41,030 nt of DNA, taken from IMG/VR virus record IMGVR_UViG_3300032085_001587, positions 1 to 41,030 of that record. One strand, written 5' to 3'. Under the pieces are notes generated by a model. The model had not been told where the DNA came from, did no database searches, and saw only the letters and a program-made list of their open reading frames with translations. Below are positions 2,095 through 21,060 of the stretch, piece by piece; positions within the stretch are counted from its first letter, which is position 1, and each line of letters opens with the position of its first letter. The stretch comes from a virus. Position numbers and translations under genes: made by a program.

Positions 2095-2099
2095 AATAA

Positions 2100-2940: not shown

Positions 2941-2942
2941 GA

Positions 2943-3173
2943 TTAAGTTAGGAACGAAGTTACAACTTTAGATGGTAGTTCATCTAACAAAGAATATTTA
3001 TCGGCCTTGTTGATATTCTGTCTTAATTCACTGAAATACTGAGAGTAATAACCATCTTCTTCAGTAATTAAGTCAAAACATTCTTCATCATTTTCTGCAA
3101 CAACATTCCACACTCCACCATATTCTGATGAGGGAAATGGTACATAATGGTCAACAATGTAGATAAATTTCAT
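2943..3173 (-). CDS. small conserved-type cyanophage protein
   Basis: A 76-residue acidic protein beginning MKFIYIVDHYVPFPSSEYGG. The pattern of a leading beta strand, a VWNVVAEND strand and a helix (DEECFDLITEED) suggests a small alpha/beta fold. It is the first gene after a strong sigma70-like promoter (3224-3196) and is followed two bases later by the CP12-like gene. I recall similar proteins in T4-like cyanophages; function unknown. Confidence 0.65.
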   Translation of the reverse strand: MKFIYIVDHYVPFPSSEYGGVWNVVAENDEECFDLITEEDGYYSQYFSELRQNINKADKYSLLDELPSKVVTSFLT

Positions 3174-3195
3174 TAGTCTTGAGAATTACCTTAAT

Positions 3196-3224
3196 AGTAT
3201 AAGTTAGTTACGAGAGATTGTCAA
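3196..3224 (-). promoter_or_regulatory. sigma70-like promoter
   Basis: Minus strand TTGACA (3224-3219) and TATACT (3201-3196) with a 17-bp spacer, near consensus for a bacterial vegetative promoter. The -35 lies inside the 3' end of the 49-residue gene. It would drive the gene at 3173 and the operon that follows it, down to the oxygenase. Confidence 0.72.
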
Positions 3225-3357
3225 GTTGTCGTTGTAACTCATAATAGACTGAAATAAGTTTGAGATTCATGTAAGTTTCGTAGTCATTACCTTTGATTAG
3301 ATCAAGTGTAGTCTCAATTTGTTGCATAGCAAGAGTGAGTGTTTCCATTTCATCCAT
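3208..3357 (-). CDS. small helical hypothetical protein
   Basis: A 49-residue protein, MDEMETLTLAMQQIETTLDL to RQLDNLS, likely one or two amphipathic helices or a short coiled coil. The frame is open 12 codons upstream, but ATG at 3357 overlaps the stop of the 51-residue gene (3350-3352), consistent with coupling. No homology recognised. Confidence 0.5.
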   Translation of the reverse strand: MDEMETLTLAMQQIETTLDLIKGNDYETYMNLKLISVYYELQRQLDNLS

Positions 3358-3505
3358 TAGAGTTTTTAACCTTGTCCACAAGATAAGCTGCAAACTCCTC
3401 CATCTTATCAGGATGAATAGCCTTGATGCCTACATCTTTGACAGCGTTTTCAATACTTTCGATTTGTGTTTTGTTAAGTTTTTTACTGTTTGATGGTAGG
3501 CTCAT
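3350..3505 (-). CDS. 51-residue hypothetical protein
   Basis: Reading the minus strand from ATG 3505 gives 51 codons and a TGA at 3352-3350. The protein starts MSLPSNSKKLNKTQIESIEN and ends VDKVKNSNG, with a basic N-terminus and two predicted helices around GIKAIHPDKMEEFAAYL. The gene fills exactly the gap between the neighbours: three bases after the upstream stop, and overlapping the downstream start by eight. Lengths, spacing and composition make it a real gene although it is very short. Function unknown. Confidence 0.6.
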   Translation of the reverse strand: MSLPSNSKKLNKTQIESIENAVKDVGIKAIHPDKMEEFAAYLVDKVKNSNG

Positions 3506-3508
3506 GTG

Positions 3509-3781
3509 TTAATTCTCTGTCATATCTTTATCTATCAAATTATAATCTTTGAGTTCTGGTGTGACTACCCCTTCCCAACATTTCTTAAAATTCTCGTCAA
3601 AGTTCTTAGTAAAAACAGGAACAAATGCAAGTAATGCGTGACTAATGTCTACAACATCTTGACGATTATTGCTATTAGATGCTTCTACCAGTTTACCTGA
3701 TAGAAACTCAATGGTAGCAATATGACTGAATGACTGTTCAAGGTCATTCATAAGTTCCCATACCTCATCATATTTTGTCAT
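3509..3781 (-). CDS. conserved-type cyanophage protein, helical
   Basis: A 90-residue helical protein (MTKYDEVWELMNDLEQSF; later FTKNFDENFKKCWEGVV). It starts four bases inside the end of the upstream gene (ATGA overlap at 3778-3781), so the pair is probably co-translated. I remember similar proteins in T4-like cyanophages but no assigned function. Confidence 0.65.
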   Translation of the reverse strand: MTKYDEVWELMNDLEQSFSHIATIEFLSGKLVEASNSNNRQDVVDISHALLAFVPVFTKNFDENFKKCWEGVVTPELKDYNLIDKDMTEN

Positions 3782-3972
3782 TTGATTACGTTCCAGTTTT
3801 CATCGTTAGTTTTGTTCATCCAGAAGTGATACCTTCCACTGATAGAAGAAAGAAACATCTGGTCTTCTGTCTCTTGTTCTACACGACATGAATGAAGTTC
3901 ATGCATGAGATTGTAAAATCGATTCTTCGATTTACTATTTTTTGGTTCAACACAAACGAATTTGGGTTTCAT
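3778..3972 (-). CDS. small conserved-type cyanophage protein
   Basis: A 64-residue protein, MKPKFVCVEPKNSKSKNRFYN to NDENWNVIK, with a basic start and a Cys/His-bearing helix (LMHELHSCRVEQE). It is the first gene downstream of the sigma70-like promoter at 4057-4085; the leader is about 80 nt. No Shine-Dalgarno sequence is obvious. Function unknown. Confidence 0.65.
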   Translation of the reverse strand: MKPKFVCVEPKNSKSKNRFYNLMHELHSCRVEQETEDQMFLSSISGRYHFWMNKTNDENWNVIK

Positions 3973-4056
3973 AGAGTGGTGTCTCTTACAATACAGTGGT
4001 CATTTGAAGGTGAGTAACTTTGTACCTATAACTCATCTATCAACCGGGACAAGCCT

Positions 4057-4085
4057 ATTCTATAGACCTTTTGTATATCTGTCAA
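4057..4085 (-). promoter_or_regulatory. sigma70-like promoter overlapping a stop codon
   Basis: Minus strand TTGACA (4085-4080), 17-bp spacer, TAGAAT (4062-4057). The first three bases of the -10 are the TAG stop of the metalloprotease-like gene. It would drive 3972-3208. Between it and the ATG at 3972 there is an untranslated leader of roughly 80 nt in which I see no other element. Confidence 0.68.
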
Positions 4086-4398
4086 GGTTCTGTTGTTCAC
4101 TCATACGAGCACATCGTTCACACCGAGGAATATTTTTCAAATGTTGAAACATATGATACAATTCATGTAGAATAGTCTTGGTGTGTTCTGCACCATCAAG
4201 TCTCTCATCAATTTGAATTAGAAACTCATGGTCATCTTCTCTCATACACCAACCATCAACACCCTCATCAGATAGGTCCATATAAACTACTGTAAGGTCT
4301 ACTGAATAGTCAGATAGGTATTCTATCAAGAACCACTCAATAAGTGGTCTACAATCGGATATAGGGTGGTCTGGGAGGTTGATACTAATACAATGCAT
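4060..4398 (-). CDS. HExxH zinc-metalloprotease-like protein (SprT-like size)
   Basis: A 112-residue protein. ATG at 4398 is chosen because AAGGA lies seven bases upstream; an open frame extends seven codons further. The zinc motif HELYH is at 78-82 in TILHELYHMFQH, after a beta-hairpin-like segment (EFLIQIDERLDG), the arrangement found in minimal zincin and SprT/WLM-type domains. CERC at 93-96 resembles half of a zinc ribbon. There is no signal peptide, so it should be cytoplasmic, unlike the exported HEGWH protein at 1185-1847. Substrate unknown. Confidence 0.65.
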   Translation of the reverse strand: MHCISINLPDHPISDCRPLIEWFLIEYLSDYSVDLTVVYMDLSDEGVDGWCMREDDHEFLIQIDERLDGAEHTKTILHELYHMFQHLKNIPRCERCARMSEQQNLDRYTKGL

Positions 4399-4486
4399 GA
4401 GATAGTCCTTGATACACAATTCTGGTCCCCCAATTCATCATCCACATGAATGACACAATGAAGATTAGTTTATGAGTAGTGGTCAT
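4385..4486 (-). CDS. possible 33-residue small membrane peptide
   Basis: ATG at 4486 opens a 33-codon frame with a hydrophobic stretch (LIFIVSFMWMMNWG) that could span a membrane. AAGGAG directly abuts the ATG, which is closer than ideal for ribosome binding, and the frame overlaps the next start by 14 nt. The rest of the interval 4399-4568 has no other frame that looks coding. Confidence 0.28.
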   Translation of the reverse strand: MTTTHKLIFIVSFMWMMNWGTRIVYQGLSHALY

Positions 4487-4514
4487 CTCCTTGGTATAAC
4501 TCCACATACTATAA

Positions 4515-4540
4515 GACCCCCACTCGTAAAAGTGGAGGTC
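4515..4540 (-). terminator. hairpin, possible terminator
   Basis: GACCCCCACT (4515-4524) and AGTGGAGGTC (4531-4540) form a 10-bp stem with a six-base loop; the one mismatch is a G-U wobble in minus-strand RNA. It follows the broken reading frames that end at 4569. Only a weak T-rich tail follows (TCTTATAGT), so termination may be partial. Confidence 0.42.
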
Positions 4541-4568
4541 AGTTGTGACAGTTTGTCAAGTGGTCCTA

Positions 4569-4875
4569 TCAGTCAGCATTGTAGTGAAAAGTGCCAATGA
4601 GGTATTTATTAGTGATATCTGCAAGAACTGTACCCCAAGCAGTTCCGCCAATATAACAACTAAAATAATTGAGTGGAGTAGCACCATAAAATGAAATATT
4701 ACCATTATGAGATTTTAGATATTTACAGAATGCCACTCAGGCATTACTGGTGAATTTACAACTACTTCAGTACCAATACCAGTCACTGATGATTCATAAA
4801 GACCTTTGAGTTCATCAACTGTTGTAACATTAGAAATCAATGTTTCTCTTTGCTCTGATAGAAAATTCGAAATAG
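4569..4875 (-). pseudogene. broken reading frame, unrecognised
   Basis: Two minus-strand frames look coding but do not join. The first reads NFLSEQRETLISNVTTVDEL onward, through GIGTEVVVNSPVMPEWHSV, and stops at 4715. The second begins KYLKSHNGNISFYGATPLN and runs to FHYNAD with a stop at 4569. A one-base shift near 4718-4730 would join them into one protein. No start codon with a ribosome site is evident upstream. Gly/Asn/Ser-rich composition is like phage structural proteins, but I do not recognise it. Confidence 0.4.
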
Positions 4876-4996
4876 ATAGTTACTTCCCGTCTCAGAAAGC
4901 AGACCATCTTTTCAAAGATAATATGAAATGGTTGTGTCTGCTTTCTCTTACCTCCATTGAGCAAGAATTCAACACCACGATTTATGTGGTCTTCAT
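4830..4996 (-). pseudogene. small basic protein, start out of frame
   Basis: The minus-strand frame ending at 4830 reads DHINRGVEFLLNGGKRKQTQ and on through FHIIFEKMVCFLRREV to RAKRNIDF, a plausible basic phage protein of about 50 residues. The only nearby ATG (4996) is one base out of frame and stops after four codons; adding a base near 4991-4993 would fuse them. In frame, only GTG/TTG codons at 5057/5054 inside the glutaredoxin end are available. Either a non-ATG start is used or a base has been lost. Confidence 0.4.
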
Positions 4997-5050
4997 TTTT
5001 ATTTATGTTAAGACTTGATGACTTGTTGTTCTCTGAGGAATTTGATTGTG

Positions 5051-5251
5051 TCAACACATCCTCCTAATTTTTTTATTGTCACATACTACTTGCGGAAAAG
5101 TAGAACCCCTACCAAATTTAGCATAGAATTCTTCTCGCGTAAAGTCTTCTTCAAGATTATAAGATACGAACTGTGTTCCTGTCAACTCCAGTACTTGTTT
5201 AATCTTATAACAGTGAGGACAATTTTCTTTTGTGTATACTTTAAAATTCAT
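5051..5251 (-). CDS. glutaredoxin, frameshifted near the C-terminus
   Basis: A thioredoxin-fold disulfide reductase (NrdC/Grx type) that would supply electrons to ribonucleotide reductase or reduce protein-glutathione disulfides. Residues visible: the active site CPHC (Cys11, Cys14) and the cis-proline loop TFPQVV. The frame as given ends RRMC at residue 66. With one fewer A in the seven-A run at about 5068-5074 it would read on as KKLGGCVDTIKFLREQQ and stop at 5008, restoring the family's GGC/D-D-T motif and final helix (80 residues, normal size). GGAAG eight bases before ATG 5251 is a good ribosome site; the gene starts just after the carbamoyltransferase stop. Confidence 0.8.
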   Translation of the reverse strand: MNFKVYTKENCPHCYKIKQVLELTGTQFVSYNLEEDFTREEFYAKFGRGSTFPQVVCDNKKIRRMC

Positions 5252-5254
5252 AAA

Positions 5255-6937
5255 TTAACTTCCGATTAAAAAATAATTTCCAATTACAAGACAATCTAGA
5301 TCAATACTTTCAAAAGTTTTAATAGCATCTTTTGGATTCTCTACAATTGGTTGACCATTATCATTGAAAGAAGTATTTAAAAGAACCGGACAATCAGTTT
5401 CTTTGTTATATTTTTGAAGAAGTGTTGTAACTTCTGGATGCAATTTTTCATTTACAGTTTGAATTCTACATGAGAAATCTTTATGTGTGATCGCACCAAG
5501 TTTCTTTCTTTGATGTGGTTTTACTACCAGAGAGTATAGCATATATTCATTTGGATATACATCTATAAAGTATTCTTCTTGATATTCTTCAAGCATAATG
5601 CCCGCAAATGGACGCCACTCTTCTCTATGTTTAATACGAGTATTGATTGTCTTTTTATTTTCTTTTAATGATGGGTTCATCAGAATTGAACGAGAACCAA
5701 GTGCTCTAGGTCCAAACTCTGAACGATTTTGAAACCATCCAACAATTTTATTATCAGCAAGAAGTTTAGCAACCTTCTCACACAGTTCTTCAAAGTTATC
5801 AAACTTCTTATAGTTTTTCCCTTCAAGTGCTTTCTCAATCTCTTCGTCACTATAAGTGCGTCCAAGAAGTGAAATATTATGTGGGAGAGTTACTTTTTCT
5901 TTTGTCTTAAAAACACCATAACATGCAGCACCAAATGATAATCCAGTATCGTCAGGAAATGGTGGGATGTGCATATTCTTTACAATTTCATTCTTACGAA
6001 TGACAGAGTTTGTGAGAATATTCAGAAACACACCACCAGCAAGGCAAAGATTGTCATCAATATATCCTTGCTCTTTGAGTGTCTTCATATAAACAAGCAT
6101 TCCCTGCTCAAAATTATGTTGAAGAGTTCTTGCTTTGTTCTCTGGACTCATGTTCCCATAAACATAGTCCTGTCCAGGAAAAGAATTGAATGTAACTGAA
6201 GGGATACCTTCGAAAGTTTGTCGATAATCTTTTTCAAACTCCTTTATATTACCATATGCCGAAAGACCCATGACCTTGCCACAGAATGTCTCACGATACT
6301 TTGGATCAGTAATATCAATTTGTTTCTGAACCATCTCAACATAAATTTGATATGCCCAAGCCCAATAATAATTTCCAAAGTTATTCATTTCAGGAATACC
6401 GGGATGATACCTAAAAATACCTTTTTCTTTATTAAAGTATCCTATAGAATGATTCTCTGTAGAAAAAGCATTGCCAGTAGAATTGAATAAAATAGATCCA
6501 GCATTATCCATCGTAATAAATGTTCCTTCATTGTAATCTGAAGAGAACACTGATGAATATGCATGACACATATGATGTGATACTATCTCAACTTTTGCTT
6601 TTGGAAAATATCTTTTAACTTTAGATTGAAGAGTTTGATTAATATAATTCTTATAGAAGTTTGTATTTGCCATCGATGGAACGACAACTACATCAATATC
6701 TTCTTTGGAAAGATTTCCTGTCGATAAACAATAGTCTATCGATTTTCGTGGAAAGTTTCCATCATATTTAATACCAGTAAGTCTTTCTTCACTGATACTA
6801 GTTACATGATTTCCATTAGAAAATAAAGACACACTTGCTCCATGTGTCCAACTTTCATTCATTTGTTCTCTCAAACGAGGATTATCAGAAATTAAAACGT
6901 TCCATCCAATCGCACCATAAAGTCCAATAACATTCAT
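5255..6937 (-). CDS. carbamoyltransferase, NodU/CmcH family
   Basis: A 560-residue enzyme expected to transfer a carbamoyl group from carbamoyl phosphate, via carbamoyl-AMP, to a hydroxyl on a sugar or similar acceptor. Family landmarks occur in order: ISEERLTGIKYDG near 48-60; the metal site HHMCHAYSS (His121, His122, His125) and MDNAG (Asp144); KVMGLSAYG (221-229); AGGVFLNILTN (300-310); FPDDTGLSFGAA (327-338); FGPRALGSRSIL (408-419); and NTSFNDNGQPIVENPKDAI (521-539) in the YrdC-like/C-terminal part. All expected motifs are present, so it looks active. It overlaps the GT9-like gene by ATGA. With the glycosyltransferase and sulfotransferase nearby it probably decorates a glycan on the virion or the host surface; the acceptor is not known. 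Confidence 0.9.
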   Translation of the reverse strand: MNVIGLYGAIGWNVLISDNPRLREQMNESWTHGASVSLFSNGNHVTSISEERLTGIKYDGNFPRKSIDYCLSTGNLSKEDIDVVVVPSMANTNFYKNYINQTLQSKVKRYFPKAKVEIVSHHMCHAYSSVFSSDYNEGTFITMDNAGSILFNSTGNAFSTENHSIGYFNKEKGIFRYHPGIPEMNNFGNYYWAWAYQIYVEMVQKQIDITDPKYRETFCGKVMGLSAYGNIKEFEKDYRQTFEGIPSVTFNSFPGQDYVYGNMSPENKARTLQHNFEQGMLVYMKTLKEQGYIDDNLCLAGGVFLNILTNSVIRKNEIVKNMHIPPFPDDTGLSFGAACYGVFKTKEKVTLPHNISLLGRTYSDEEIEKALEGKNYKKFDNFEELCEKVAKLLADNKIVGWFQNRSEFGPRALGSRSILMNPSLKENKKTINTRIKHREEWRPFAGIMLEEYQEEYFIDVYPNEYMLYSLVVKPHQRKKLGAITHKDFSCRIQTVNEKLHPEVTTLLQKYNKETDCPVLLNTSFNDNGQPIVENPKDAIKTFESIDLDCLVIGNYFLIGS

Positions 6938-8198: not shown

Positions 8199-8205
8199 TA
8201 TTTAT
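8199..8205 (-). promoter_or_regulatory. late promoter box (T4-type)
   Basis: Minus-strand AATAAATA, overlapping the TAA stop of the sulfotransferase gene (8204-8202) and 23 nt before ATG 8176. It probably drives the DUF7936, GT9-like and carbamoyltransferase genes late in infection. Confidence 0.58.
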
Positions 8206-9101
8206 TTAAAGATAATATTATTATCCTTTGTAAGTGGTGCCTTTACCTTAGGGGTTACCGTAACAATATCAGGTGTTCCCCAAAATTCAAGTCTTCTTTT
8301 GTTTTGTTCATAAATATCGATAATTTCTTCAGGGAGAATTGATGCTGGTGGAGGAGAAGTTTTCTTGACCTTAGAACGAACCTGATGCATATCACTTAGT
8401 CCATAAGTTATCAAATCATCTTCCCTATGAATATTTGAGATTGATCCAAAGTCATGATCATAAAACTCTTCCCCAATAAAATCATAGATGTCTTCCATTA
8501 TTTTTTCGGGATTATCTACAAGATCATTATAGTCCACAAAATGCATTTTGTCACGCACATTTTGTTGGAATCCCATCATAATCGCATTCAGTGACTCATA
8601 AACAATACCACCTCCACCAAGAAGATACATACATCTATTCAAATCATTAATAGGAATATCAGTTTTGATTAATTGTTCATCTATAAAATTAATTCTTGGT
8701 TGTCCTTCCTGAAAAGGATTTCGATGAATCATTGTCAGAATAGAAGTTAGAATCTCATCTATTCTACGAACTGGAACAAGAATCTTTGCCTGTTCTCCAA
8801 TGTATCCTTCAATATAAGGAACTCTTGCAGTCCATGCACGATTTTTATCAAAGACAACTGGTTGTTGAACATCACTATAAAAATGATGTGGAATGCTACC
8901 AATGATCTCTCTGACTTGATCTGGTTTTGGATATCCATGATACAACTCATTACCCATAAAGTCTTGCTCTACGGCAAACATTGCACCAAGAACTGGACTT
9001 GATGGTCCAGAATAAAATCTTGGATTCTGATTTAGAATTGATGAAAGCAAAGTACTCCCCGATCTGGGGAGTCCTGCCATAAAGTAAAAAGTTTTATTCA
9101 T
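8202..9101 (-). CDS. PAPS-dependent sulfotransferase
   Basis: A 299-residue protein of the sulfotransferase family, which moves sulfate from 3'-phosphoadenosine-5'-phosphosulfate to an alcohol or amine. The 5'-phosphosulfate loop GLPRSGSTLL is at 10-19. The 3'-phosphate site is the Arg...Ser pair in VRRIDEILTS (Arg112/113, Ser120). YNDLVDNPEKIMEDIYDFIGEE (about 195-216) is the usual later helix region. It is intact and full length. It lies just downstream of the 2586-residue fibre gene, separated by 40 bp containing a GGTATAAT sequence but no convincing -35. Together with the neighbouring sugar and carbamoyl transferases it suggests modification of a phage fibre or host surface glycan. Confidence 0.85.
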   Translation of the reverse strand: MNKTFYFMAGLPRSGSTLLSSILNQNPRFYSGPSSPVLGAMFAVEQDFMGNELYHGYPKPDQVREIIGSIPHHFYSDVQQPVVFDKNRAWTARVPYIEGYIGEQAKILVPVRRIDEILTSILTMIHRNPFQEGQPRINFIDEQLIKTDIPINDLNRCMYLLGGGGIVYESLNAIMMGFQQNVRDKMHFVDYNDLVDNPEKIMEDIYDFIGEEFYDHDFGSISNIHREDDLITYGLSDMHQVRSKVKKTSPPPASILPEEIIDIYEQNKRRLEFWGTPDIVTVTPKVKAPLTKDNNIIFK

Positions 9102-9141: not shown

Positions 9142-12100
9142 TCAATTATTCAGTAGAGAATTAACTTTTTCTTCCAGTGAAGATAATCTTTCTTTGAGTT
9201 CTTGGTTTTCGACATCAAGTTCTTTGATTGCATTTACAAGAACAGGAAGTAAGTGCTCATGAGTGACACCCCACTTATCTATGTTAGATTTTGATGCAAT
9301 GATTGTTTCATCACCTTCAAGTTCTGCAACCTCTTGAGCACTGAATCCATATCTGACTCTTTCATCAGTAACCTCATTCGTTTCTCTATTCTTGAATGAA
9401 TATTTGATAGGATTAATATTCTGTAAGAATCCTCTTCCATGAGGTACATCACCATAAACACACTTATCTCTAATATCAGAAATAACTGTCCATGCTACTT
9501 GTATTGCGGCACATGAATGATTTGCATTACCCATAACAATACAATTGCTACTTGTCGTCAGATTAATCAGTCCTGATGGAGTGCCTGTTGTTTGACCGGC
9601 ATTTTGACCAAATGCAAGGTTATTACTACCTGCTGTATTATTGCATCCTGCCTGATAACCTAAGAAGTTATTATGAGTTCCAGTGGTGTTGGATCTTCCT
9701 GCATCACGACCTAAGAAGTTATTATAACCTCCAGTGGTGTTGCAGTATCCTGTACATTGACCTAAGAAGTTATTATGAGTTCCAGTGGTGTTGGAGAATC
9801 CTGCATTAAGACCTAAGAAGTTATTACAACCTCCAGTCGAATTTCTGCCCGAATAACGACCAATAAAAATATTATAATCTGCGTCGGCATTTTGGCCTGC
9901 CTGACATCCTATATGGACATTATGACTTCCAGTAGTATTAGAGCATCCTGCTTCACGTCCAATGAAAGTATTAAAACATCCAGTGGTGTTGAATTTTCCT
10001 GCATAAAAACCAAAGAAGTTATTAGAAGTTCCAGTGGTGTTGCAGTATCCTGCACTAAAACCTAAGAAGTTATTATTATTTCCAGAACCAGAAGCACACT
10101 TACCAGCATAAGTTCCTAAGAAGGTATTATGTTGTCCAGTGACCGTTGCGCATTGACCGGCACCAACACCAATCATATTGTTACAGGATCCAGTGGTGTT
10201 GGAGAGTCCTGCATAAGCACCTAAGAAGTTATTACGAGTTCCAGTGGTGTTGCATCTTCCTGCACCATTACCTAAGAAGTTATTAGAACCTCCAGTGGTG
10301 TTGTAGCATCCTGCATAAGCACCTAAGAAGTTATTAAAACTTCCAGTGGTGTTGGAGAATCCTGCACCACAACCTAAGAAGTTATTAGAACTTCCAGTGG
10401 TGTTGCATCTTCCTGCACCCTGACCTAAGAAGTTATTACGAGTTCCAGTGGTGTTGGAGAATCCTGCTGCATTACCTAAGAAGTTATTAGTACCTCCAGT
10501 GGTGTTGTTGTATCCTGCATAATCACCTAAGAAGTTATTAGAAGTTCCAGTGGTGTTATTGAATCCTGCACTCAGACCAAAGAAGTTATTATTATTTCCA
10601 GAACCAGAAGCACACTTACCGGCATAAGTTCCTAAGAAGGTATTATGTTGTCCAGTGACCGTTGCGCATTTACCGGCACCAAGACCAATCATATTGTTAC
10701 AGGATCCACTAGTGTTGGATCTTCCTGCATCAAGACCTAAGAAGTTATTATAATTTCCAGTGGTGTTGTATCTTCCTGCACTAGAACCTAAGAAGTTATT
10801 AGAACCTCCAGTGGTGTTGTAGCATCCTACATTAGTACCTAAGAAGTTATTAAAACTTCCAGTGGTGTTGCAGAGTCCTGCATTCTGACCTAAGAAGTTA
10901 TTAGAACCTCCAGTGGTGTTGTATCTTCCTGCAATATTACCTAAGAAGTTATTAAAACCTCCAGTGGTGTTGGAGCATCCTGCACTATTACCAAAGAAGT
11001 TATTATAATTTCCAGTGGTGTTGAAGGTTCCTGCACTCAGACCTAAGAAGTTATTATAATTTCCAGTGGTGTTGAAGGTTCCTGCACAAAAACCCATGAA
11101 GTTATTATAACCTCCAGAACCAGAAGCACACTTACCGGCATAAGTTCCTAAGAAGGTATTATGTTGTCCAGTGACCGTTGCGCATTTACCGGCACCAAGA
11201 CCAATCATATTGTTACAGGATCCAGTGGTGTTGGAGAGTCCTGTTCCATGACCTAAGAAGTTATTATCAGTTCCAGTGGTGTTGCATCTTCCTGCATAAC
11301 GACCTAAGAAGTTATTATAAGATCCAGTGGTGTTGGAGAATCCTGCATTAAGACCTAAGAAGTTATTATAAGATCCAGTGGTGTTCAATTTTCCTGCATA
11401 ATTACCAAAGAAGTGATTATGAGATCCAGTGGTGTTGCAGGAACCTGCACCACGCATCATTATAATATTTCTACATCCAGTGGTGTTGCAGTATCCTGCA
11501 CCATTACCGAGGAAAATATTCTCACTTCCAGTGGTGTTGGATCTTCCTGCATTACGACCTAAGAAGTTATTATCACTTCCAGTGGTGTTGGATCTTCCTG
11601 CATAAGCACCTAAGAAGTTATTAAAACATCCAGTGGTGTTCAATCTTCCTGCATCATGACCTAAGAAGTTATTTTTTCTTCCAATGGTGTTGGAGCATCC
11701 TGCAAATTGACCAAAGAAGTTATTATAACCTCCAGTGGTGTTGTTTCGTCCTGCACTATTACCTAAGAAGTTATTAAAACTTCCAGTGGTGTTGGAGAGT
11801 CCTGCACAACTACCTAAGAAGTTATTATGACATGCAGTGGTGTTGCAGAGTCCTGCATTAAAACCAAAGAAGTTATTATAACCTCCAGTGGTGTTGTTTC
11901 GTCCTGCATAATGACCTAAGAAGTTATTACAACCTCCAGTGGTGTTTAAGTATCCTGCACTACGACCTAAGAAGTTATTAAAACTTCCAGTGGTGTTGAG
12001 GAGTCCTGCATTAGAACCAAAGAAGTTATTATTATTTCCAGAACCAGAAGCACACTTACCAGCATAAGTTCCTAAGAAGTTATTATGTTGTCCAGTGACC

Positions 12101-15100
12101 GTTGCGCATTGACCGGCACCACGACCGATCATATTGTTACAGGATCCAGTGGTGTTGGAGATTCCTGTTCCATTACCTAAGAAGTTATTAAAACATCCAG
12201 TGGTGTTGCAGTATCCTGCCTGAACACCTAAGAAGTTATTAGAACCTCCAGTGGTGTTGCAGAATCCTGCACTCAGACCAAAGAAGTTATTATAACCTCC
12301 AGAACCAGAAGCACACTTACCGGCATAAGTTCCTAAGAAGTTATTATGTTGTCCAGTGACCGTTGCGCATTGACCGGCACCACGACCGATCATATTGTTA
12401 CAGGATCCAGTGGTGTTGGAGAATCCTGCAAGATAACCAAAGAAGTTATTATTATTTCCAGTGGTGTTGCAGGATCCTGCACTAGCACCTAAGAAGTTAT
12501 TACAACTTCCAGTGGTGTTAGCGTATCCTGCATTACGACCTAAGAAGTTATTACAAGATCCAGTGGTGTTGCATCTTCCTGCACTAGGACCAAAGAAGTT
12601 ATTAGAACCTCCAGTGGTGTTGCATTTTCCTGCACTAGAACCAAAGAAGTTATTATTATTTCCAGTGGTGTTGGAGAATCCTGTATAATTACCTAAGAAG
12701 TTGTTATTATTTCCAGTGGTGTTGTATCTTCCTGCAAATTGACCTAAGAAGTTATTATAATTTCCAGTGGTGTTGGATCTTCCTGCATAATTACCTAAGA
12801 AGTTATTAGAAGTTCCAGTGGTGTTGAATCTTCCTGCACTAAAACCTAAGAAGTTATTAGAACCTCCAGTGGTGTTGAAGGTTCCTGCACAAAAACCCAT
12901 GAAGTTATTATGAGTTCCAGAACCAGAAGCACACTTACCGGCATAAGTTCCTAAGAAGTTATTATGTTGTCCAGTGACCGTTGCACATTGACCGGCACCA
13001 CGACCGATCATATTGTTACAGGATCCAGTGGTGTTGGAGAATCCTGCAAGATAACCAAAGAAGTTATTATTATTTCCAGTGGTGTTGCAGGATCCTGCAC
13101 TAGCACCTAAGAAGTTATTACAACTTCCAGTGGTGTTAGCGTATCCTGCATTACGACCTAAGAAGTTATTACAAGATCCAGTGGTGTTGCATCTTCCTGC
13201 ACTAGGACCAAAGAAGTTATTAGAACCTCCAGTGGTGTTGCATTTTCCTGCACTAGAACCAAAGAAGTTATTATTATTTCCAGTGGTGTTGGAGAATCCT
13301 GTATAATTACCTAAGAAGTTGTTATTATTTCCAGTGGTGTTGTATCTTCCTGCAAATTGACCTAAGAAGTTATTATAATTTCCAGTGGTGTTGGATCTTC
13401 CTGCATAATTACCTAAGAAGTTATTAGAAGTTCCAGTGGTGTTGAATCTTCCTGCACTAAAACCTAAGAAGTTATTAGAACCTCCAGTGGTGTTGAAGGT
13501 TCCTGCACAAAAACCCATGAAGTTATTATGAGTTCCAGAACCAGAAGCACACTTACCGGCATAAGTTCCTAAGAAGTTATTATGTTGTCCAGTGACCGTT
13601 GCACATTGACCGGCACCACGACCGATCATATTGTTACAGGATCCAGTGGTGTTGGAGAGTCCTGCATTAGAACCAAAGAAGTTATTAAAACCTCCAGTGG
13701 TGTTGGAGAATCCTGCACCCCAACCAATGAAATTGTTACAATTCCCAGAAATGTTATATCTTCCTGCACATTGACCAAAGAAGTTATTACCACTTCCTGT
13801 GGTGTTGAATCTTCCTGAAGCTTCCCCAATGATGTTATTATTACTTCCAGTGGTGTTGTTTCCTCCTGCTTCACGACCAATGAAGTTATTAGAAGTTCCA
13901 GTGGTGTTGGAGAATCCTGCAAGATAACCAACGAAGAAATTACTACCTCCAGTGGTGTTGCATCTTCCTGTGCGACGACCAATGAAGACATTACAACCTC
14001 CAGTGGTGTTGAATTGTCCTGCATATTCACCCGCAAAGAAATTATAAGATCCAGATCCTCCTGCTGCAAATCCCGATCTAAATCCAAGGAAAATATTCTG
14101 AGTTCCGGTAGTATTTCCATATCCCGCACCCTGACCTATAGCAACATTACAAGTCCCAGTGATGTTTGATCTTCCTGCATCCTGACCAATAAAGTTATTA
14201 CCAGTTCCAGTGGTGTTGGAGCATCCTGCATTACAACCAAAGAAGTTATTAAAACATCCAGTGGTGTTGCATCTTCCTGCATTACGACCTAAGAAGTTAT
14301 TATCACTTCCAGTGGTGTTGGAGAGTCCTGCATTACAACCAAAGAAGTTATTAAAAGTTCCAGTGGTGTTGGAGAGTCCTGCATTAGCACCTAAGAAGTT
14401 ATTATGAGTTCCAGTGGTGTTGTTGTATCCTGCATTAGAACCTAAGAAGTTATTATTATTTCCAGTGGTGTTGCGTCTTCCTGCATCCTGACCTAAGAAG
14501 TTATTTTTTTTTCCAGTGGTGTTGTTGTATCCTGCATTAGAACCTAAGAAGTTATTATAATTTCCAGTGGTGTTGGAGGATCCTGCATTAGAACCTAAGA
14601 AGTTATTAAAACCTCCAGTGGTGTTGGAGAGTCCTGCATTAGCACCAAAGAAGTTATTAAAACCTCCAGTGGTGTTGCATCTTCCTGCACTATTACCTAA
14701 GAAGTTATTATAACATCCATCAGTAATACTATTACCAGCATTACATCCCATAAAGATGTTAAAGCAGGCAGATCCTGTTGAAGGATCATACCCACCACCA
14801 GTCGTTGCATCACCGGCAAATATATTTCCGTCTGCGTCTTGTCTAAGTTCTTTTGCAAATGAACTAATACCAGCAAATGATGTTGCTGTTACCGTACCAG
14901 CAAATGTGGCATTACCATCAGGAAGAATAGTAGCACCAATTCCAGATGGTCCAGTGGAGTAACCAACATTTAATCCACTTCTGGCAGTTACAAAACCAAC
15001 AGTATCTACACTTGATACATCTTCATATGTCAGTGTTCCACCGATGGTGACATTACCACTGAATGTAGCAGTCCCACCAACAATGTTCTCGGTGTATATT

Positions 15101-16902
15101 GTAGTAACACCGATTGATTCAGCACCAGTGATGAAACCTAGTGTTGAAACACCAGTAACAACTAATGATTCTGCTACAACATTTGCCGTGTAGGCAAGAC
15201 CAGTAATTGTGACCTCACCTTGAGAACCACTTAGAGAAATATTAGCTCCAGCAATAAGAGAGGTAACAATACCCGTTAGGTTATTACCATTCCCATAATA
15301 AGTTGCACCTGTAACAACACCTAAAGTTGTAATACCAGAGACAATAAGTGAGTTTGCACTTACCGTATTGAGTGTCGTAATACCACTAACAACTATTGAG
15401 TCTGTTAAAACATTTGCAGTATTGGCAATACCGGTGATTGTAACATTACCAATCGATTGGTCAATTGTTATATATGGACCAGCAGTAATAGTTGTTACAA
15501 TACCGGTAAGTTCAGTACCACGACCATAGTATGTCGTAATACCAACAGATGCACCAACAGTTGCACCTACTCCTGATGAGGTAATCTTAAAGTCGGCAAA
15601 GGATGAGATACCTACATCAACATTTAGTTGTGTGACAGAAGCAATACCACCGATTACATTCGTTGCAGTAGTGGAAAATCCGACACTTATACCTCCAGGA
15701 GAGGCTAAGTTAAATGCTGTGGTCGCAAATGATGCTGTTGAGGCAGTACCAATCAGATTACCATAGACAGTGACGGCAGCACCAGCAAATGTATTAGTGA
15801 TGATACCGGCATTGATTTCAACAACACCTAAAGTAGAAATACCAGTATTATTAACACTTAAGGAAGTAACAGAAGCAATACCACCGATTACATTCGTTGC
15901 AATAGTGGCAAATCCGACACTTATACCTCCAGGAGAGGCTAAGTTAAATGCTGTGGTCGCAAATGATGCTGTGGTCGCAAATGATGCTGTGGAAGCAGTA
16001 CCAATTAGGTCGCCATAAACAGTGACGGCAGCACCAGCAGTAGCGGTTATGATACCGGCATTGATTTCAACAACACCTAAAGTAGAAATACCAGTATTAT
16101 TAACACTCAATTGTGTGACTGATGCTGCACCACCGACTACACTGGTCGATACACCAGCTTGCTCAACATAAGTCTGTTGTGAAACAGTAATTGTTGCAAT
16201 ACCACCATTATTTCCACCAGTGACAGTAACATCTAGTCCTCTAAAGTCTAGACCAGAATAAGTGGTTCCTAAACCTACTTGGCCACCTTCATCAAATATA
16301 AGAATACCCTCAACAGCTCCCGCGGGTGCAGAAGCTACCCATTGTGGAGGATTATTTGGTCCTCTTGATGCGAGAATAAGATTGGTGCTTCCACTCTCAA
16401 ATGCTGAAGTAATACCTGGTTGTGCCTGATATAATAACTGACCTGTCGCTCCGCCGTAGATATTAGTTGCGTTCGTTGCACTCGTAATACCTGTCAGTCC
16501 AGTACCAGCACCAGTAAATGTGGTTGCAGTAAGAGCACCAGATACAAAGGTATCAACTAAATTAGAAGGACCATTGACAGTGAATGCCGTACCAACTGTA
16601 GCAACACCAGTAATATTAAGATCTTTAGCTACAATTTCATCAAATACTACATCATCTTTTACATATAAATCTCCACCAACATATAAGTCACTTCCAAAAG
16701 TTCCTACACCAACGAATGTAGAGACTCCAGATACATATAAATCTTCTGAAATATTAACCGAACCTACTACATCTACTGCATTCTCTGAGGTAGATGTATT
16801 GACTCCAATACGACCAATTACCTCCAGTGAAGTTTTACCATCACTAAAAGAAGATATACCTACTTTAAGGTCCTTAAAATCTTTACTGGTGTACTTTGTC
16901 AT
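9142..16902 (-). CDS. giant repeat tail fibre with S74 chaperone domain
   Basis: A 2586-residue virion protein, very probably a tail or side fibre. Residues 1-700 carry beta-rich segments of the kind seen in T4-like cyanophage structural proteins (ISEDLYVSGVSTF, AGTGLTGI). Residues about 714-2437 consist of about 100 copies of a 17-residue unit, NTTG-xx-NNFLG-xx-AG-xx, expected to form a long beta-solenoid. The C-terminal 112 residues, from SDIRDK (Ser2475), form a Peptidase_S74 intramolecular chaperone, with the usual GFSAQEVAELEGDE and a coiled coil (VNAIKELDVENQELKERLSS); such domains trimerise the fibre and cleave themselves before that Ser. It starts six bases after the upstream structural gene and has no late box of its own. 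The frame is intact across the repeats. Confidence 0.9.
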   Translation of the reverse strand: MTKYTSKDFKDLKVGISSFSDGKTSLEVIGRIGVNTSTSENAVDVVGSVNISEDLYVSGVSTFVGVGTFGSDLYVGGDLYVKDDVVFDEIVAKDLNITGVATVGTAFTVNGPSNLVDTFVSGALTATTFTGAGTGLTGITSATNATNIYGGATGQLLYQAQPGITSAFESGSTNLILASRGPNNPPQWVASAPAGAVEGILIFDEGGQVGLGTTYSGLDFRGLDVTVTGGNNGGIATITVSQQTYVEQAGVSTSVVGGAASVTQLSVNNTGISTLGVVEINAGIITATAGAAVTVYGDLIGTASTASFATTASFATTAFNLASPGGISVGFATIATNVIGGIASVTSLSVNNTGISTLGVVEINAGIITNTFAGAAVTVYGNLIGTASTASFATTAFNLASPGGISVGFSTTATNVIGGIASVTQLNVDVGISSFADFKITSSGVGATVGASVGITTYYGRGTELTGIVTTITAGPYITIDQSIGNVTITGIANTANVLTDSIVVSGITTLNTVSANSLIVSGITTLGVVTGATYYGNGNNLTGIVTSLIAGANISLSGSQGEVTITGLAYTANVVAESLVVTGVSTLGFITGAESIGVTTIYTENIVGGTATFSGNVTIGGTLTYEDVSSVDTVGFVTARSGLNVGYSTGPSGIGATILPDGNATFAGTVTATSFAGISSFAKELRQDADGNIFAGDATTGGGYDPSTGSACFNIFMGCNAGNSITDGCYNNFLGNSAGRCNTTGGFNNFFGANAGLSNTTGGFNNFLGSNAGSSNTTGNYNNFLGSNAGYNNTTGKKNNFLGQDAGRRNTTGNNNNFLGSNAGYNNTTGTHNNFLGANAGLSNTTGTFNNFFGCNAGLSNTTGSDNNFLGRNAGRCNTTGCFNNFFGCNAGCSNTTGTGNNFIGQDAGRSNITGTCNVAIGQGAGYGNTTGTQNIFLGFRSGFAAGGSGSYNFFAGEYAGQFNTTGGCNVFIGRRTGRCNTTGGSNFFVGYLAGFSNTTGTSNNFIGREAGGNNTTGSNNNIIGEASGRFNTTGSGNNFFGQCAGRYNISGNCNNFIGWGAGFSNTTGGFNNFFGSNAGLSNTTGSCNNMIGRGAGQCATVTGQHNNFLGTYAGKCASGSGTHNNFMGFCAGTFNTTGGSNNFLGFSAGRFNTTGTSNNFLGNYAGRSNTTGNYNNFLGQFAGRYNTTGNNNNFLGNYTGFSNTTGNNNNFFGSSAGKCNTTGGSNNFFGPSAGRCNTTGSCNNFLGRNAGYANTTGSCNNFLGASAGSCNTTGNNNNFFGYLAGFSNTTGSCNNMIGRGAGQCATVTGQHNNFLGTYAGKCASGSGTHNNFMGFCAGTFNTTGGSNNFLGFSAGRFNTTGTSNNFLGNYAGRSNTTGNYNNFLGQFAGRYNTTGNNNNFLGNYTGFSNTTGNNNNFFGSSAGKCNTTGGSNNFFGPSAGRCNTTGSCNNFLGRNAGYANTTGSCNNFLGASAGSCNTTGNNNNFFGYLAGFSNTTGSCNNMIGRGAGQCATVTGQHNNFLGTYAGKCASGSGGYNNFFGLSAGFCNTTGGSNNFLGVQAGYCNTTGCFNNFLGNGTGISNTTGSCNNMIGRGAGQCATVTGQHNNFLGTYAGKCASGSGNNNNFFGSNAGLLNTTGSFNNFLGRSAGYLNTTGGCNNFLGHYAGRNNTTGGYNNFFGFNAGLCNTTACHNNFLGSCAGLSNTTGSFNNFLGNSAGRNNTTGGYNNFFGQFAGCSNTIGRKNNFLGHDAGRLNTTGCFNNFLGAYAGRSNTTGSDNNFLGRNAGRSNTTGSENIFLGNGAGYCNTTGCRNIIMMRGAGSCNTTGSHNHFFGNYAGKLNTTGSYNNFLGLNAGFSNTTGSYNNFLGRYAGRCNTTGTDNNFLGHGTGLSNTTGSCNNMIGLGAGKCATVTGQHNTFLGTYAGKCASGSGGYNNFMGFCAGTFNTTGNYNNFLGLSAGTFNTTGNYNNFFGNSAGCSNTTGGFNNFLGNIAGRYNTTGGSNNFLGQNAGLCNTTGSFNNFLGTNVGCYNTTGGSNNFLGSSAGRYNTTGNYNNFLGLDAGRSNTSGSCNNMIGLGAGKCATVTGQHNTFLGTYAGKCASGSGNNNNFFGLSAGFNNTTGTSNNFLGDYAGYNNTTGGTNNFLGNAAGFSNTTGTRNNFLGQGAGRCNTTGSSNNFLGCGAGFSNTTGSFNNFLGAYAGCYNTTGGSNNFLGNGAGRCNTTGTRNNFLGAYAGLSNTTGSCNNMIGVGAGQCATVTGQHNTFLGTYAGKCASGSGNNNNFLGFSAGYCNTTGTSNNFFGFYAGKFNTTGCFNTFIGREAGCSNTTGSHNVHIGCQAGQNADADYNIFIGRYSGRNSTGGCNNFLGLNAGFSNTTGTHNNFLGQCTGYCNTTGGYNNFLGRDAGRSNTTGTHNNFLGYQAGCNNTAGSNNLAFGQNAGQTTGTPSGLINLTTSSNCIVMGNANHSCAAIQVAWTVISDIRDKCVYGDVPHGRGFLQNINPIKYSFKNRETNEVTDERVRYGFSAQEVAELEGDETIIASKSNIDKWGVTHEHLLPVLVNAIKELDVENQELKERLSSLEEKVNSLLNN
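9590..14760 (-). repeat. about 100 tandem 51-bp coding repeats
   Basis: On the plus strand the units show two nearly invariant DNA blocks, CCTAAGAAGTTATTA and TTCCAGTGGTGTT, separated by short variable codons. The span divided by 51 gives about 101 units. Each encodes NTTG-xx-NNFLG-xx-AG-xx. Seven places carry a longer double cassette with CATVTG and CASGSG in place of NTTG. Unit borders near both ends are degenerate. Confidence 0.92.
12368..13658 (-). repeat. 618-bp near-perfect tandem duplication in the fibre gene
   Basis: 12368-13040 and 12986-13658 appear identical base for base with an offset of 618 bp. The match breaks at 12367/12985 (G versus A) and at 13041/13659 (A versus G). The duplication adds 206 residues, about 12 repeat units, and keeps the frame. 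Confidence 0.9.
15632..15990 (-). repeat. near-identical direct repeats in the fibre N-terminal part
   Basis: About 105 bp starting at 15632 recurs, with few changes, starting at 15866 (offset 234 bp), encoding NLASPGGISVGF-type segments. The right copy also carries an 18-bp tandem duplication (15951-15986, encoding two FATTAS units). A further pair of matching blocks lies near 15822 and 16071. Confidence 0.7.
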
Positions 16903-17256: not shown

Positions 17257-20200
17257 TTATGAATCTCCTCCTAATGCGAGAATGTAAGGTGTAATGTTGG
17301 CAAAGAGACTTCTCTTGTAAGCATTACCAGTAATAGATCCTTCTAGTTGGTTAATGATAACTCCTTTACCAATCTTGAAGTTACCTGCTTGATCGGTAGA
17401 AGTAAAGACAACCAAACCTCCATTTTTATCTACAATTTCATTCTCTGGAATTGCTATACCACCTCTTTGCGGAAGTGCAGTAAGTGCAGTATTACCAGAA
17501 CCAATATATTCAAATGCCTGAGATGAAGCAAGTACTCTACTTTGTTTGAAGAATGGAACTGTTGTTCCTACACCAACCGCATAAGGTACATTTTCAGTGA
17601 ATGTTACAGTAGTGATACCTCCAACAACTGGAGTTGCACTACTGACCACATAGTATGTAGGCAAGACATCAGGAGCGCCTGTAGCAGACCCAGTGAAGGA
17701 TACCGTAGGTGTTCCTGTATAACCCCTACCATTAGAAATCATATCTACAGAAGTCACAGAACCATCAGTCAGTTGTGCAACACCTGTTGCCTTGATACCC
17801 CATGATTCCGAAGGATCGGAGAATGTAACAGTTGGTGGTGTTGTATAACCAGAACCACCACTTGTAATAATAACACCTTTAATAGAGTTATAAATCGAAT
17901 CAAAATATACAATCTGACCATCGTAAGGTAATGATGTAAATGTTTCTACTTGACCACCAGAATGATAAAGTGATGGATATGTAGAGACACCAACATAAGA
18001 AGTAAATTCAGTTGGTGATGTAACACTATTTACGGCAAAGATATTACCAAATGACCCATTGGGGAATGATGAGATTGTACTGATTGCAACCTGACCACCA
18101 TCAATATAACTGTGTGCAATTGTCGAAGGTCCAACATTAACAGTAATATTTGTTGCCCCTACACTGATAACATCAAACACATGATTAGGTACTCCATTAT
18201 TATCACCAGATGCAGGTGGGAAGAATGCGGTTGAAGGACCACCACCAGAGTCACATCTGAATACCAAATCAGTCATTGTAACACTGATACCAGCAACAAC
18301 ATTATGTTCTACATCAGTAGAAATTGTCATAACACCTGTGATGTTATTATATGTTGCAGTAGTAATACCATAATAAGGTGTATTAGTAGTCGTTCCACCT
18401 TCTACATATTCGTGAACAATAGTTGAAATACCAACATTTACAACAAACTGATTATCATCAGGAATTTCCTGAACACTAAATCTCGAAGTAGTTGCTCCAT
18501 TACCATCACCAGCTGCAGGTGGGAAGAACGCTGTAGAGAATCCACCACCAGAATTACATCTGAATACCAAGTTGTTAAGATTGACTGCCGTTTTATAATT
18601 CAGATTATGGTCTGAATTAGTGGTAACAGTCATTATACCGGTTGATGCAGTATAAGATGCTGTTGTGATACCAAACTGTGAAGGTCTCAGTGTTGATGTA
18701 CCACCATTAACATAAGTGTGTACAATAGTAGAGATACCTACATCAACAACAAACTGATTGTTTGCGGGTATTTCTTCTACAATAAATCTACTCGTAGAAG
18801 GGCCGTTGCCATCACCACCAGCTGGTGGGAAGAATGCGGTTGAAGGACCACCACCAGAGTTACACTGGAAGACCAGTTGATTTAAATCAATTGCAGACCT
18901 TCTGTTGAAGTTATGTGCTGCACTAGTTGTAACAGTCATTATACCCGTAGATTGGGTATATGTTACTGCAGAAACACTAAATGGAACCTGTTGTGCGGTT
19001 GATACTTCTCTTACAACATCTTTAGAGTCACAAGAGAACTTCAGATTTCTCATGGAGACTGACATACCAACATTGAAATCGTGGTTGGTTGCCGTTGTAA
19101 TTGTAGTCAGACCAGTTACATTATCGTATGTTGCATTTGTAACATTGACACTATCAACACCAATGTCAATTGGGAATACATTTGAACCCGCAGATGTAAA
19201 TTCAGTAACAGTTCCAATAAAGTTTGTGGGACCAATACCATCTGCAACCAGACCCAATCTACCAAAGGAAGAGTTGGAGTTTGTTAGGTCACACTGACCA
19301 CCGTTGATACAAACAATACTTTGGTCATTGTAGATAGTAAAGATTGAAACTAACTGAGCATAACCTTCATTAGAGATTGAAACACCAATACCACCCTGAT
19401 TGAGTTGAGTATAGGAGTCAACATTCATTGCTCTGGTGTCACCAATGACATGTCTACCATCAATCTTCATACCAATACTGTTGGAGATGAAGTTTGTACA
19501 GTTTCTAATGTAAGGACCCTGTGTCACATAAGACGGTTTGTTGGGATTGAAGGAGATAATTGCCTTACCTTCATTCAATGTTCCAGTGAAGGACATATTC
19601 TCAACATAACTACCATTCGCAACATAAATCAAATCCTCATCAGGATTTTGTGGAATGATTGAAACTTCTCTCAAACTATCACCGAGAAGAGTGACCTGTT
19701 CTGGAAGAATGATTGGGTTATTTTCTGAATAATTACCAGCAGAAATTCTAACGACTGTACTTGCTTCTGCAATCGTAAGAGCAGAACCAACAGTTCTCTT
19801 TGCGGTAGAAAGGAGATAACCATCGTTCTCATCATTACCATCAGGAGTAACATAGATTTGGTTGGTAACAGATACCAGACCAACAACATTAGTCAGGTTT
19901 GAGCCATCACCATAGAATGCTGTAGCACTTACAATACCGGTGTTACCATACATTGTAACTGCGGCACCGACAGATGCAATACCAGAGACATACAGACTGT
20001 CAGTTACAGTTAAGAAACCAACTGTGGATACTCCAGTTACTTCAAGGAATTGAGTAGTGGTAACACCAGCTACTTCAAGGAATTGAGTAGTGGTAACACC
20101 AGTAACACCAAGGTTACCTGCGACAATACCTACCTTCAGAGTTGCAATGGTAGAAACACCAGTGACAACCATATTGGCTGTAGTTGTGACCCCAGAAACA

Positions 20201-21060
20201 CGAAGGTCATTATCTACAACTACATTACCACCAGTAAGTGTTGTAATACCAATAACTTCCAATGAAGTTGCAGAGGAGATGTAACCACTTTGTAAGTTTG
20301 TAGCAATACCTGCAAACTGTGCCCTACGAACATCTAATGATGTCTTAGGATCAATATAGATTGGATTTGAGGTTCCCTGTGCCAACAAGATATTACCTGT
20401 GACACCAACGGGAAGGAATATTGTGGTATCAGGTGCACTTTGAATAGGAATTCTACCAGCAGAACCACCCTCCAGATTTGTTGCGATACCCGCCTTATCG
20501 GTATATGTATCAATTGCCCCAAGATCTTTCCATATAGGTGCTCCAGTTCCGGTTGATACAAGAATTTGCTCGGAAGTACCAACCCCAGTAAATCCAGTAT
20601 CGTTAAGAGCCGCCTGATACAGAACTGCACCACTTGCCCCACCCTTTACATCAGTTGCAAGACCAGCGTTTGCTGCATACTCAGCAAACGCCACAACGTT
20701 CGCAGAAATAGTGACTCTACCTTGACCAGATACCGGACTGATTAGAATACCATCACCAGCAACAATTGTTGTAACAATACCTGTTAGATTTACTCCATCA
20801 CCAAAATAAGTTGCATTAGTGATAATACCGGCAGTGGTGATGCCAGTAAGAGATGAATTAAATAATGATGCACTATTGGTTGCGGTAAGAAACTTTGTAG
20901 TTAATCCCCCACCAACCAGGACATCGTTCGTTACCCCAATACCCAGTGCGGTAAGTATTCCAGTAACAGTAAAATTTCCACTTACCGTAGAAGGACCTAC
21001 AATAATAGGACCACTGTTATTGAACCTATTGGTTATCTTGTCGGCCCTAAGTAAAGACAT
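17257..21060 (-). CDS. large virion structural protein with pectin-lyase-like helix
   Basis: A 1267-residue protein. Residues 1-395 are repetitive beta segments with AGVTTTQFLEV and VSGIASVGAAVTMYG. From about residue 400, IYVTPDGNDENDG and TAKRTVGSALTIAEAS begin a right-handed beta-helix/pectin-lyase-like region running to about 620, with QLVSIFTIYNDQSIV and LTNSNSSFGRLGLV. Residues about 695-990 contain three 101-residue modules with CNSGGGPSTAFFPPAGG cores. The C-terminus (GGITTVTFTENVPYAVG, ending ITPYILALGGDS) is well ordered. It is transcribed from a near-perfect late promoter (21095-21088), 28 nt before the ATG. Likely a baseplate-attached or fibre-base protein; it shares the QLVSIF/NSN block with the 1629-residue protein. 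Confidence 0.8.
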   Translation of the reverse strand: MSLLRADKITNRFNNSGPIIVGPSTVSGNFTVTGILTALGIGVTNDVLVGGGLTTKFLTATNSASLFNSSLTGITTAGIITNATYFGDGVNLTGIVTTIVAGDGILISPVSGQGRVTISANVVAFAEYAANAGLATDVKGGASGAVLYQAALNDTGFTGVGTSEQILVSTGTGAPIWKDLGAIDTYTDKAGIATNLEGGSAGRIPIQSAPDTTIFLPVGVTGNILLAQGTSNPIYIDPKTSLDVRRAQFAGIATNLQSGYISSATSLEVIGITTLTGGNVVVDNDLRVSGVTTTANMVVTGVSTIATLKVGIVAGNLGVTGVTTTQFLEVAGVTTTQFLEVTGVSTVGFLTVTDSLYVSGIASVGAAVTMYGNTGIVSATAFYGDGSNLTNVVGLVSVTNQIYVTPDGNDENDGYLLSTAKRTVGSALTIAEASTVVRISAGNYSENNPIILPEQVTLLGDSLREVSIIPQNPDEDLIYVANGSYVENMSFTGTLNEGKAIISFNPNKPSYVTQGPYIRNCTNFISNSIGMKIDGRHVIGDTRAMNVDSYTQLNQGGIGVSISNEGYAQLVSIFTIYNDQSIVCINGGQCDLTNSNSSFGRLGLVADGIGPTNFIGTVTEFTSAGSNVFPIDIGVDSVNVTNATYDNVTGLTTITTATNHDFNVGMSVSMRNLKFSCDSKDVVREVSTAQQVPFSVSAVTYTQSTGIMTVTTSAAHNFNRRSAIDLNQLVFQCNSGGGPSTAFFPPAGGDGNGPSTSRFIVEEIPANNQFVVDVGISTIVHTYVNGGTSTLRPSQFGITTASYTASTGIMTVTTNSDHNLNYKTAVNLNNLVFRCNSGGGFSTAFFPPAAGDGNGATTSRFSVQEIPDDNQFVVNVGISTIVHEYVEGGTTTNTPYYGITTATYNNITGVMTISTDVEHNVVAGISVTMTDLVFRCDSGGGPSTAFFPPASGDNNGVPNHVFDVISVGATNITVNVGPSTIAHSYIDGGQVAISTISSFPNGSFGNIFAVNSVTSPTEFTSYVGVSTYPSLYHSGGQVETFTSLPYDGQIVYFDSIYNSIKGVIITSGGSGYTTPPTVTFSDPSESWGIKATGVAQLTDGSVTSVDMISNGRGYTGTPTVSFTGSATGAPDVLPTYYVVSSATPVVGGITTVTFTENVPYAVGVGTTVPFFKQSRVLASSQAFEYIGSGNTALTALPQRGGIAIPENEIVDKNGGLVVFTSTDQAGNFKIGKGVIINQLEGSITGNAYKRSLFANITPYILALGGDS
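18085..18975 (-). repeat. three 303-bp coding modules
   Basis: Three consecutive about 303-bp segments encode the same 101-residue module (TGIMTV, HN, LVF-C-SGGG, STAFFPPA-GDGNG, FVV-VGISTIVH-Y--GG). The SGGG cores lie near 18840, 18535 and 18235 on the minus strand. A single-domain expansion inside the 1267-residue protein. Confidence 0.8.
20039..20104 (-). repeat. 33-bp tandem duplication
   Basis: The block around TTCAAGGAATTGAGTAGTGG occurs at 20041 and again at 20074, an exact 33-bp offset, doubling an 11-residue segment (GVTTTQFLEV-A). Confidence 0.75.

Follow-up and report, generated by a model that had tools for sequence, protein, structure and literature searches.

The fibre gene and its repeat array

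The window analysed here, the whole 41,030-nucleotide stretch of the IMG/VR record IMGVR_UViG_3300032085_001587, encodes tail and baseplate proteins, an endolysin or M23 peptidase and tail fibres, together with a NUMOD3 homing-endonuclease-like protein, a carbamoyltransferase and a sulfotransferase. The NUMOD3/homing-endonuclease-like gene (29033-29578) lies inside the tail fibre gene cluster, and two adjoining paralogous genes at 30655-32141 belong to PHROG 17490. A tail protein next to the fibre gene described below is closest to those of the Synechococcus phages S-H68, RB11-B and S-B05 (48-49% identity), and a search of the phage collection returned no near-identical phage records. The source is probably a marine, cyanophage-like myovirus with cyanobacteria as host.

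A giant tail fibre gene occupies positions 9142-16902 on the minus strand. From its ATG start a single uninterrupted frame encodes 2586 aa, and the product matches the virion structural and tail spike families PHROG 23837, 6002 and 4636 (E 1.6e-101, 9.9e-68 and 3.1e-64, respectively). Its N-terminal module (residues 1-714; 14761-16902, minus strand), probably involved in virion attachment, is common to array-less relatives, RB11-B and S-B05. It is followed by an array of repeats of the form NNFLG-xx-AG-xx-NTTG-xx (9571-14760, minus strand), in which three variable dipeptides, hereafter slots, occupy unit columns 6-7, 10-11 and 16-17. Splitting of the protein gave 101 consecutive units spanning residues 715-2444, with starts from 715 to 2428, and Tandem Repeats Finder reported a period of 51 with 98.7 copies at 9646-14719; chance or low complexity as the source of the repeats was ruled out by these two approaches. 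The initial annotation, which had described about 100 copies of a 17-residue repeat in one protein with the frame intact through 5 kb of repeats, is borne out on both points. Its description of an unbroken, regular array holds as far as the units are consecutive: unit spacings are mostly 17 aa (83), with 18 aa (15) and 16 aa (2) also found, a few units are degenerate, and a 36-aa block (NNMIGxGAGxCATVTGQH-NxFLGTYAGKCASGSGxx), made of two 18-aa units, is scattered through the array in seven copies (13528-13635, 12910-13017, 12292-12399, 12031-12138, 11107-11214, 10591-10698 and 10075-10182, the first on the minus strand). The array also contains an exact 673-bp duplication on the minus strand (copy 1, 12986-13658; copy 2, 12368-13040), corresponding to a 12-unit block shifted by 618 bp, the two copies overlapping by 55 bp. 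As this duplication is verifiable only with reads, the count of 101 units could be 12 off if it is an assembly effect.

The gene ends in an S74 chaperone (residues 2475-2586; 9145-9480, minus strand). Peptidase_S74 (PF13884) was matched at 27.8 bits, over the cut-off, and at 20.7 bits in the whole-protein scan, just under the cut-off of 22. SDxxxK is the catalytic motif of the S74 family (PMC10769870); here it reads SDIRDK (Ser2475/Lys2480; 9463-9480, minus strand), of which S, D, R and K are invariant in 21 relatives. A C-terminal helix is predicted in a model of low overall confidence, and this S74 domain model was set aside because its confidence was too low for use. By analogy with S74 family members, the domain may form trimers and cut itself at the serine. 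Given the tail and baseplate cluster and a Peptidase_S74 end with SDxxxK, the gene is best read from its sequence as an S74-chaperoned trimeric tail fibre. The fibre reading of the initial annotation is upheld as a prediction from sequence, drawing on the tail gene cluster and the S74 C-terminal chaperone.

The N-terminus and the array behave in sequence comparisons as separable modules: RB11-B keeps the local gene order with a 472-residue counterpart that has the N-terminal module without the array, and in the related records L048 and L051 the N-terminal-type gene and the array gene are separate open frames. Other arrangements were seen among relatives. In L016 (IMGVR_UViG_3300049043_000112, 236 kb) four genes in a row each carry an array of the same type. 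In L009, a 2493-aa ORF has a long array ending at the 83rd unit, a non-repeat neck and a second short array of the last eight units, which begins again with the first-unit motif NIFMGCNAGNSITEGDY. Directly downstream of the window fibre gene lies a sulfotransferase (PF13469, 52 bits; 8202-9101) and, two genes beyond it, a carbamoyltransferase (5255-6937), and in HTVC111P and HTVC112P a glycosyltransferase directly follows the fibre gene. The fibre itself or a glycan of the host might be the substrate of these enzymes.

Predicted fold and slot composition

A ten-repeat segment modelled as a single chain with AlphaFold2 from 36 aligned sequences yielded a regular solenoid (pLDDT 86.2, pTM 0.84), in agreement with the solenoid proposed initially. 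Each 17 residues contribute two short strands, one covering columns 2-4 and the other about 11-14. In this layout turns contain slots 6-7 and 16-17, a strand edge carries slot 10-11, and all three probably face outwards. A fold search of the ten-unit model against the PDB gave no match at E below 0.001, and a PDB sequence search gave marginal matches only; the best match among viral models was D6PIN1 (TM 0.74, E 3.6e-4).

Column entropy is about 0-0.7 bits in the framework, 1.6 in column 4 and 2.4-3.6 in the slots. A fixed framework with varying slots, as first described, is therefore apparent; the slots do not vary wholly freely. In the window they hold mostly Ser (20%), Asn (12%), Cys (11%), Tyr (9%), Phe (9%) and Arg (9%), with Val, Ile and Pro at or below 0.5% and Met almost absent. 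Cysteine makes up 0.6% of ten other large window proteins and 6-22% of slot residues among the related array genes compared; by slot, over all 54 arrays of the comparison below, it ranges from 6 to 29%, with 29% in slot 11, 18% in slot 16 and 17% in slot 7. Cys pairs within one dipeptide are depleted (5 seen for 19 expected, 25 for 49 and 10 for 31). A disulfide ladder was rejected: same-slot neighbours have no general Cys enrichment, slot 11 being depleted and slot 16 enriched. Linkage between slot positions is strongest inside dipeptides (z 3.1, 3.4 and 5.8) and mostly missing between them, a weaker link between 6 and 10 being the exception, which fits three semi-independent slots. Along the array slot identity is flat over lags 1-5, with no order.

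Slot codons change mainly at their first two positions

Slot evolution was analysed on the 70 distinct regular units of the window and restricted to codons ending in T or C (NNY), in which a third-position T/C change is always silent. In slot codons the proportion of unit pairs that differ is 0.543 at position 1, 0.677 at position 2 and 0.072 at position 3, compared with 0.063 for framework position 3. The slot replacement-to-silent ratio is 8.5 (bootstrap 95% 5.5-14.9, an interval that serves as a guide only because the units are related). Framework codons of the 70 units are near-identical including their third positions, column 4 excepted. Ten more arrays have the same slot codon pattern. 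Across 54 non-redundant arrays, slot pN stays at 0.45-0.67 while framework pS takes any value from 0.05 to 0.77; three records from contig 3300031957_002670 were left out as non-independent (L002, L036 and L059), the first two being 100% identical to the window across the overlap. On these comparisons slots saturate before the silent sites of the framework. Saturation of both measures brings slot pN/pS close to 1 in the oldest arrays, and the selection signal therefore rests on young arrays. The early claim of a fixed framework with diversifying slots is in this way supported, with slot replacement about 8-fold over silent change in the window and slot pN staying high in the 54-array comparison.

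Several processes were ruled out as makers of this pattern. Short-tract gene conversion does not account for it because the conserved third base sits amid variable bases (16.3 lies between 16.2 and 17.1), and regional hypermutation in the window is dismissed since silent sites in the slots change about as little as those of the framework. Codon preference fails as well, since one residue has different third bases by column and the pattern varies by lineage. This column-specific yet lineage-dependent third base looks like an inherited memory of the founder unit rather than a codon optimum. Unconstrained slots are ruled out in young arrays, where replacement is far above silent change. The excess of replacements is observed, and we infer that its cause is selection on the slots for amino-acid diversity.

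The same codon pattern could be written by a diversity-generating retroelement or another codon-phase-specific mutator: NNY codons with a fixed third base and two free bases would be the outcome of AAY template codons, and fibre proteins are known retroelement targets (PMC8144416). However, no reverse transcriptase match was found in the eight records searched, namely the window's own record, which is a genome fragment, and seven related ones, including two longer than 229 kb, and within the window there is no template-like copy outside the array. Retroelements mutate with adenine bias (PMC8144416), and the framework adenines (AAT AAC, AAC ACC ACT) are invariant; slots 11 and 17 have mostly T rather than A at position 1, Gln, Lys and AGA codons are found in slots, and unit order and number change too. 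Because no reverse transcriptase was found in these eight records and the framework adenines are fixed, the sequences make a retroelement an unlikely source of slot change, and to a mutator of this general kind we would give only a very small chance.

Arrays are replaced between close relatives

The initial annotation had suggested an alignment of this gene between close relatives. Such comparisons revealed changes in both unit number and slots. L035 and the window have 99.3% DNA identity across the 714 N-terminal residues and share the first unit; in later units the framework is 97% identical in DNA and slots agree at 15%, which is background. Of the eight units of L035, four have a counterpart at another place in the window array that agrees at at least 5 of 6 slots, compared with 0.3 expected, and thus units are relocated in addition to being altered. 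At the opposite end of the gene, six records (L005, L006, L009, L010, L011 and L012) have a 130-residue C-terminus 98-98.5% identical in DNA, and in the five compared the slots of the last units agree at only 13-29%. L005 and L006 come from one metagenome; their sequences match without a difference for about 18.8 kb, up to a shared contig end, and yet have none of their 41 and 33 units in common. This comparison comes from one assembly with a long shared end, in which assemblers can collapse small backbone differences. Their backbone is matched at 99.9-100% by L017, from another sample. HTVC111P and HTVC112P align at 85-89% either side of the fibre, most of which is unalignable. Turnover is not universal, since the cultured phages P-SSM2 and P-SSM5, whose repeat type is related yet distinct, are 99.77% identical through the array and differ there no more than by the general 0.2%. 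In P-SSM5 (L137) the annotation splits the repeat fibre (2060-5343) into two frames with a frame change between them, whereas P-SSM2 has it as a single frame (PSSM2_298). Related genes have anywhere from 12 to 101 units, which does not have the look of a conserved ruler; the length-adjusting role once considered for the array finds little support.

The array contigs are metagenomic, and in such data assembly can join repeats wrongly or merge closely related strains. An account without selection takes the slots as merely unconstrained and the array differences as assembly chimeras or recombination with distant phages. It agrees with the slot ratios of old arrays, with contigs that often break within arrays and with the exact 673-bp duplication. 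It does not agree with the young arrays, where a lack of constraint cannot lift replacement about 8-fold above silent change, nor can short-tract conversion homogenise a third base between variable bases. In addition, the control pair L003 and L004, from two samples, have identical arrays, which indicates that arrays can be assembled reproducibly. We regard this account as quite unlikely. The contigs of the close relatives L013 and L017 end at the array's 3' edge or close to it, which would be expected of a population with several arrays attached to one backbone.

Slots might also differ for folding only, unlike neighbours preventing register slips or aggregation in a homotrimeric solenoid whose shaft is otherwise passive. 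One framework in all coils and the unordered slot content over lags 1-5 are in keeping with this. Yet folding needs differences within an array and not the observed replacement between near-identical relatives, and it leaves the restricted polar, aromatic and Cys repertoire unexplained; we hold it to be improbable. Combined, variation at fixed slots and array replacement are as expected, on sequence grounds, for a putative rapidly evolving host-binding surface.

A model for the fibre

We consider it probable that the gene encodes a tail fibre (long adhesin) of a cyanophage-like myovirus with an N-terminal attachment module, a solenoid shaft, an S74 domain for trimerisation and cleavage, and slots selected for change. 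The N-terminal 714 residues would attach the fibre to the virion, as suggested by their conservation in array-less relatives. The 101 repeats are predicted to form a beta-solenoid shaft with one coil per 17-residue repeat, which at 0.48 nm per coil would be roughly 48 nm long. The S74 domain, judging from its family and motif, would trimerise and fold the fibre and then cut itself off before Ser2475. The framework would build the coil and present the three dipeptide slots at turns and strand edges, probably outward; the slots would change under selection for amino-acid diversity, which the observed excess suggests, and the arrays appear by comparison to be reshaped by duplication, deletion, relocation and exchange of units. 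The likely benefit would be that the fibre makes numerous weak contacts, open to change, with the varying glycans of host surfaces, binding of which is the most likely putative purpose of the slots.

A further and more tentative proposal, which may well prove wrong, is that unit recombination and selection together keep about 600 surface positions changing as a diversity generator free of any retroelement. If so, genomes in a population would be identical apart from the fibre gene, of which many alleles would coexist, and host recognition could shift without a dedicated mutator enzyme. Slot replacement about 8 times silent change, recurring in many arrays, provides a clean sequence signature of an ever-changing phage surface in a class of marine fibres whose usual annotation is 'hypothetical'. 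Should host glycans be what the slots bind, recognition of hosts by these phages would have a code that can be counted, and recombination would provide an alternative to diversity-generating retroelements. Array turnover may also account for assemblies of such phages breaking at the fibre gene.

Comparison with known systems

The codon-phase hypervariation and the array turnover appear new, 17-residue repeats and S74 fibres being of already known kinds. S74-chaperoned fibres and spikes (PF13884; endosialidase, the T5 L-shaped fibre, Bdellovibrio MAT fibres) share with the window fibre the S74 end with SDxxxK, a beta-structured shaft and a tail gene cluster, and differ from it in the shaft, which in the window is a 101-unit array of 17-residue repeats with hypervariable dipeptide slots. 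No earlier description of such a hypervariable-slot, 101-unit S74 shaft was found in the open-licence literature. The proteins of PHROG 23837, 6002 and 4636 and marine phage fibres such as HTVC111P gp52, Venkman gp55 and P-SSM2 PSSM2_298 are similar in repeat type: their 17-residue repeats contain a turn of the NTTG type (NTAVGxxALxxNTTGxx in the isolates), and most of them have an S74-like end. The window fibre is distinguished from them by NNFLG...AG, far more units, high slot Cys and fast array turnover.

YadA-type heads, left-handed beta-rolls of a trimeric adhesin with short N-x-x-x-G coil repeats, resemble the fibre in their working, with 14-15 residues per coil compared with 17 in the window. 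No YadA model was among the Pfam matches of the fibre up to E 10, and no YadA head fold was among the 50 PDB matches listed, where a monomer model may miss one. The chlorovirus glycoprotein repeat (PF06598) was ruled out as the identity of the array, which has no match to it, sub-threshold matches all being in the gene at 17257-21060. Retroelement targets, Bordetella phage Mtd and others, are alike in outcome, with replacement-rich change, a fixed third base and a fibre protein as the target. In contrast, in the window neither reverse transcriptase nor template was found, the framework adenines are fixed, and about 100 small variable sites take the place of one short variable region.

The closest published settings found in the open-licence literature are the tail fibres of marine metaviromic islands (PMC3909814) and the elongated FhaB-like proteins in a hypervariable region of Ostreococcus viruses (PMC12906663). 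Both are repeat-rich, S74/YadA-associated genes for host recognition, in regions varying between near-identical viruses. The variability they are reported to show is that of whole genes or domains, whereas in the window it is a slot-level, codon-phase diversification of the repeat units.
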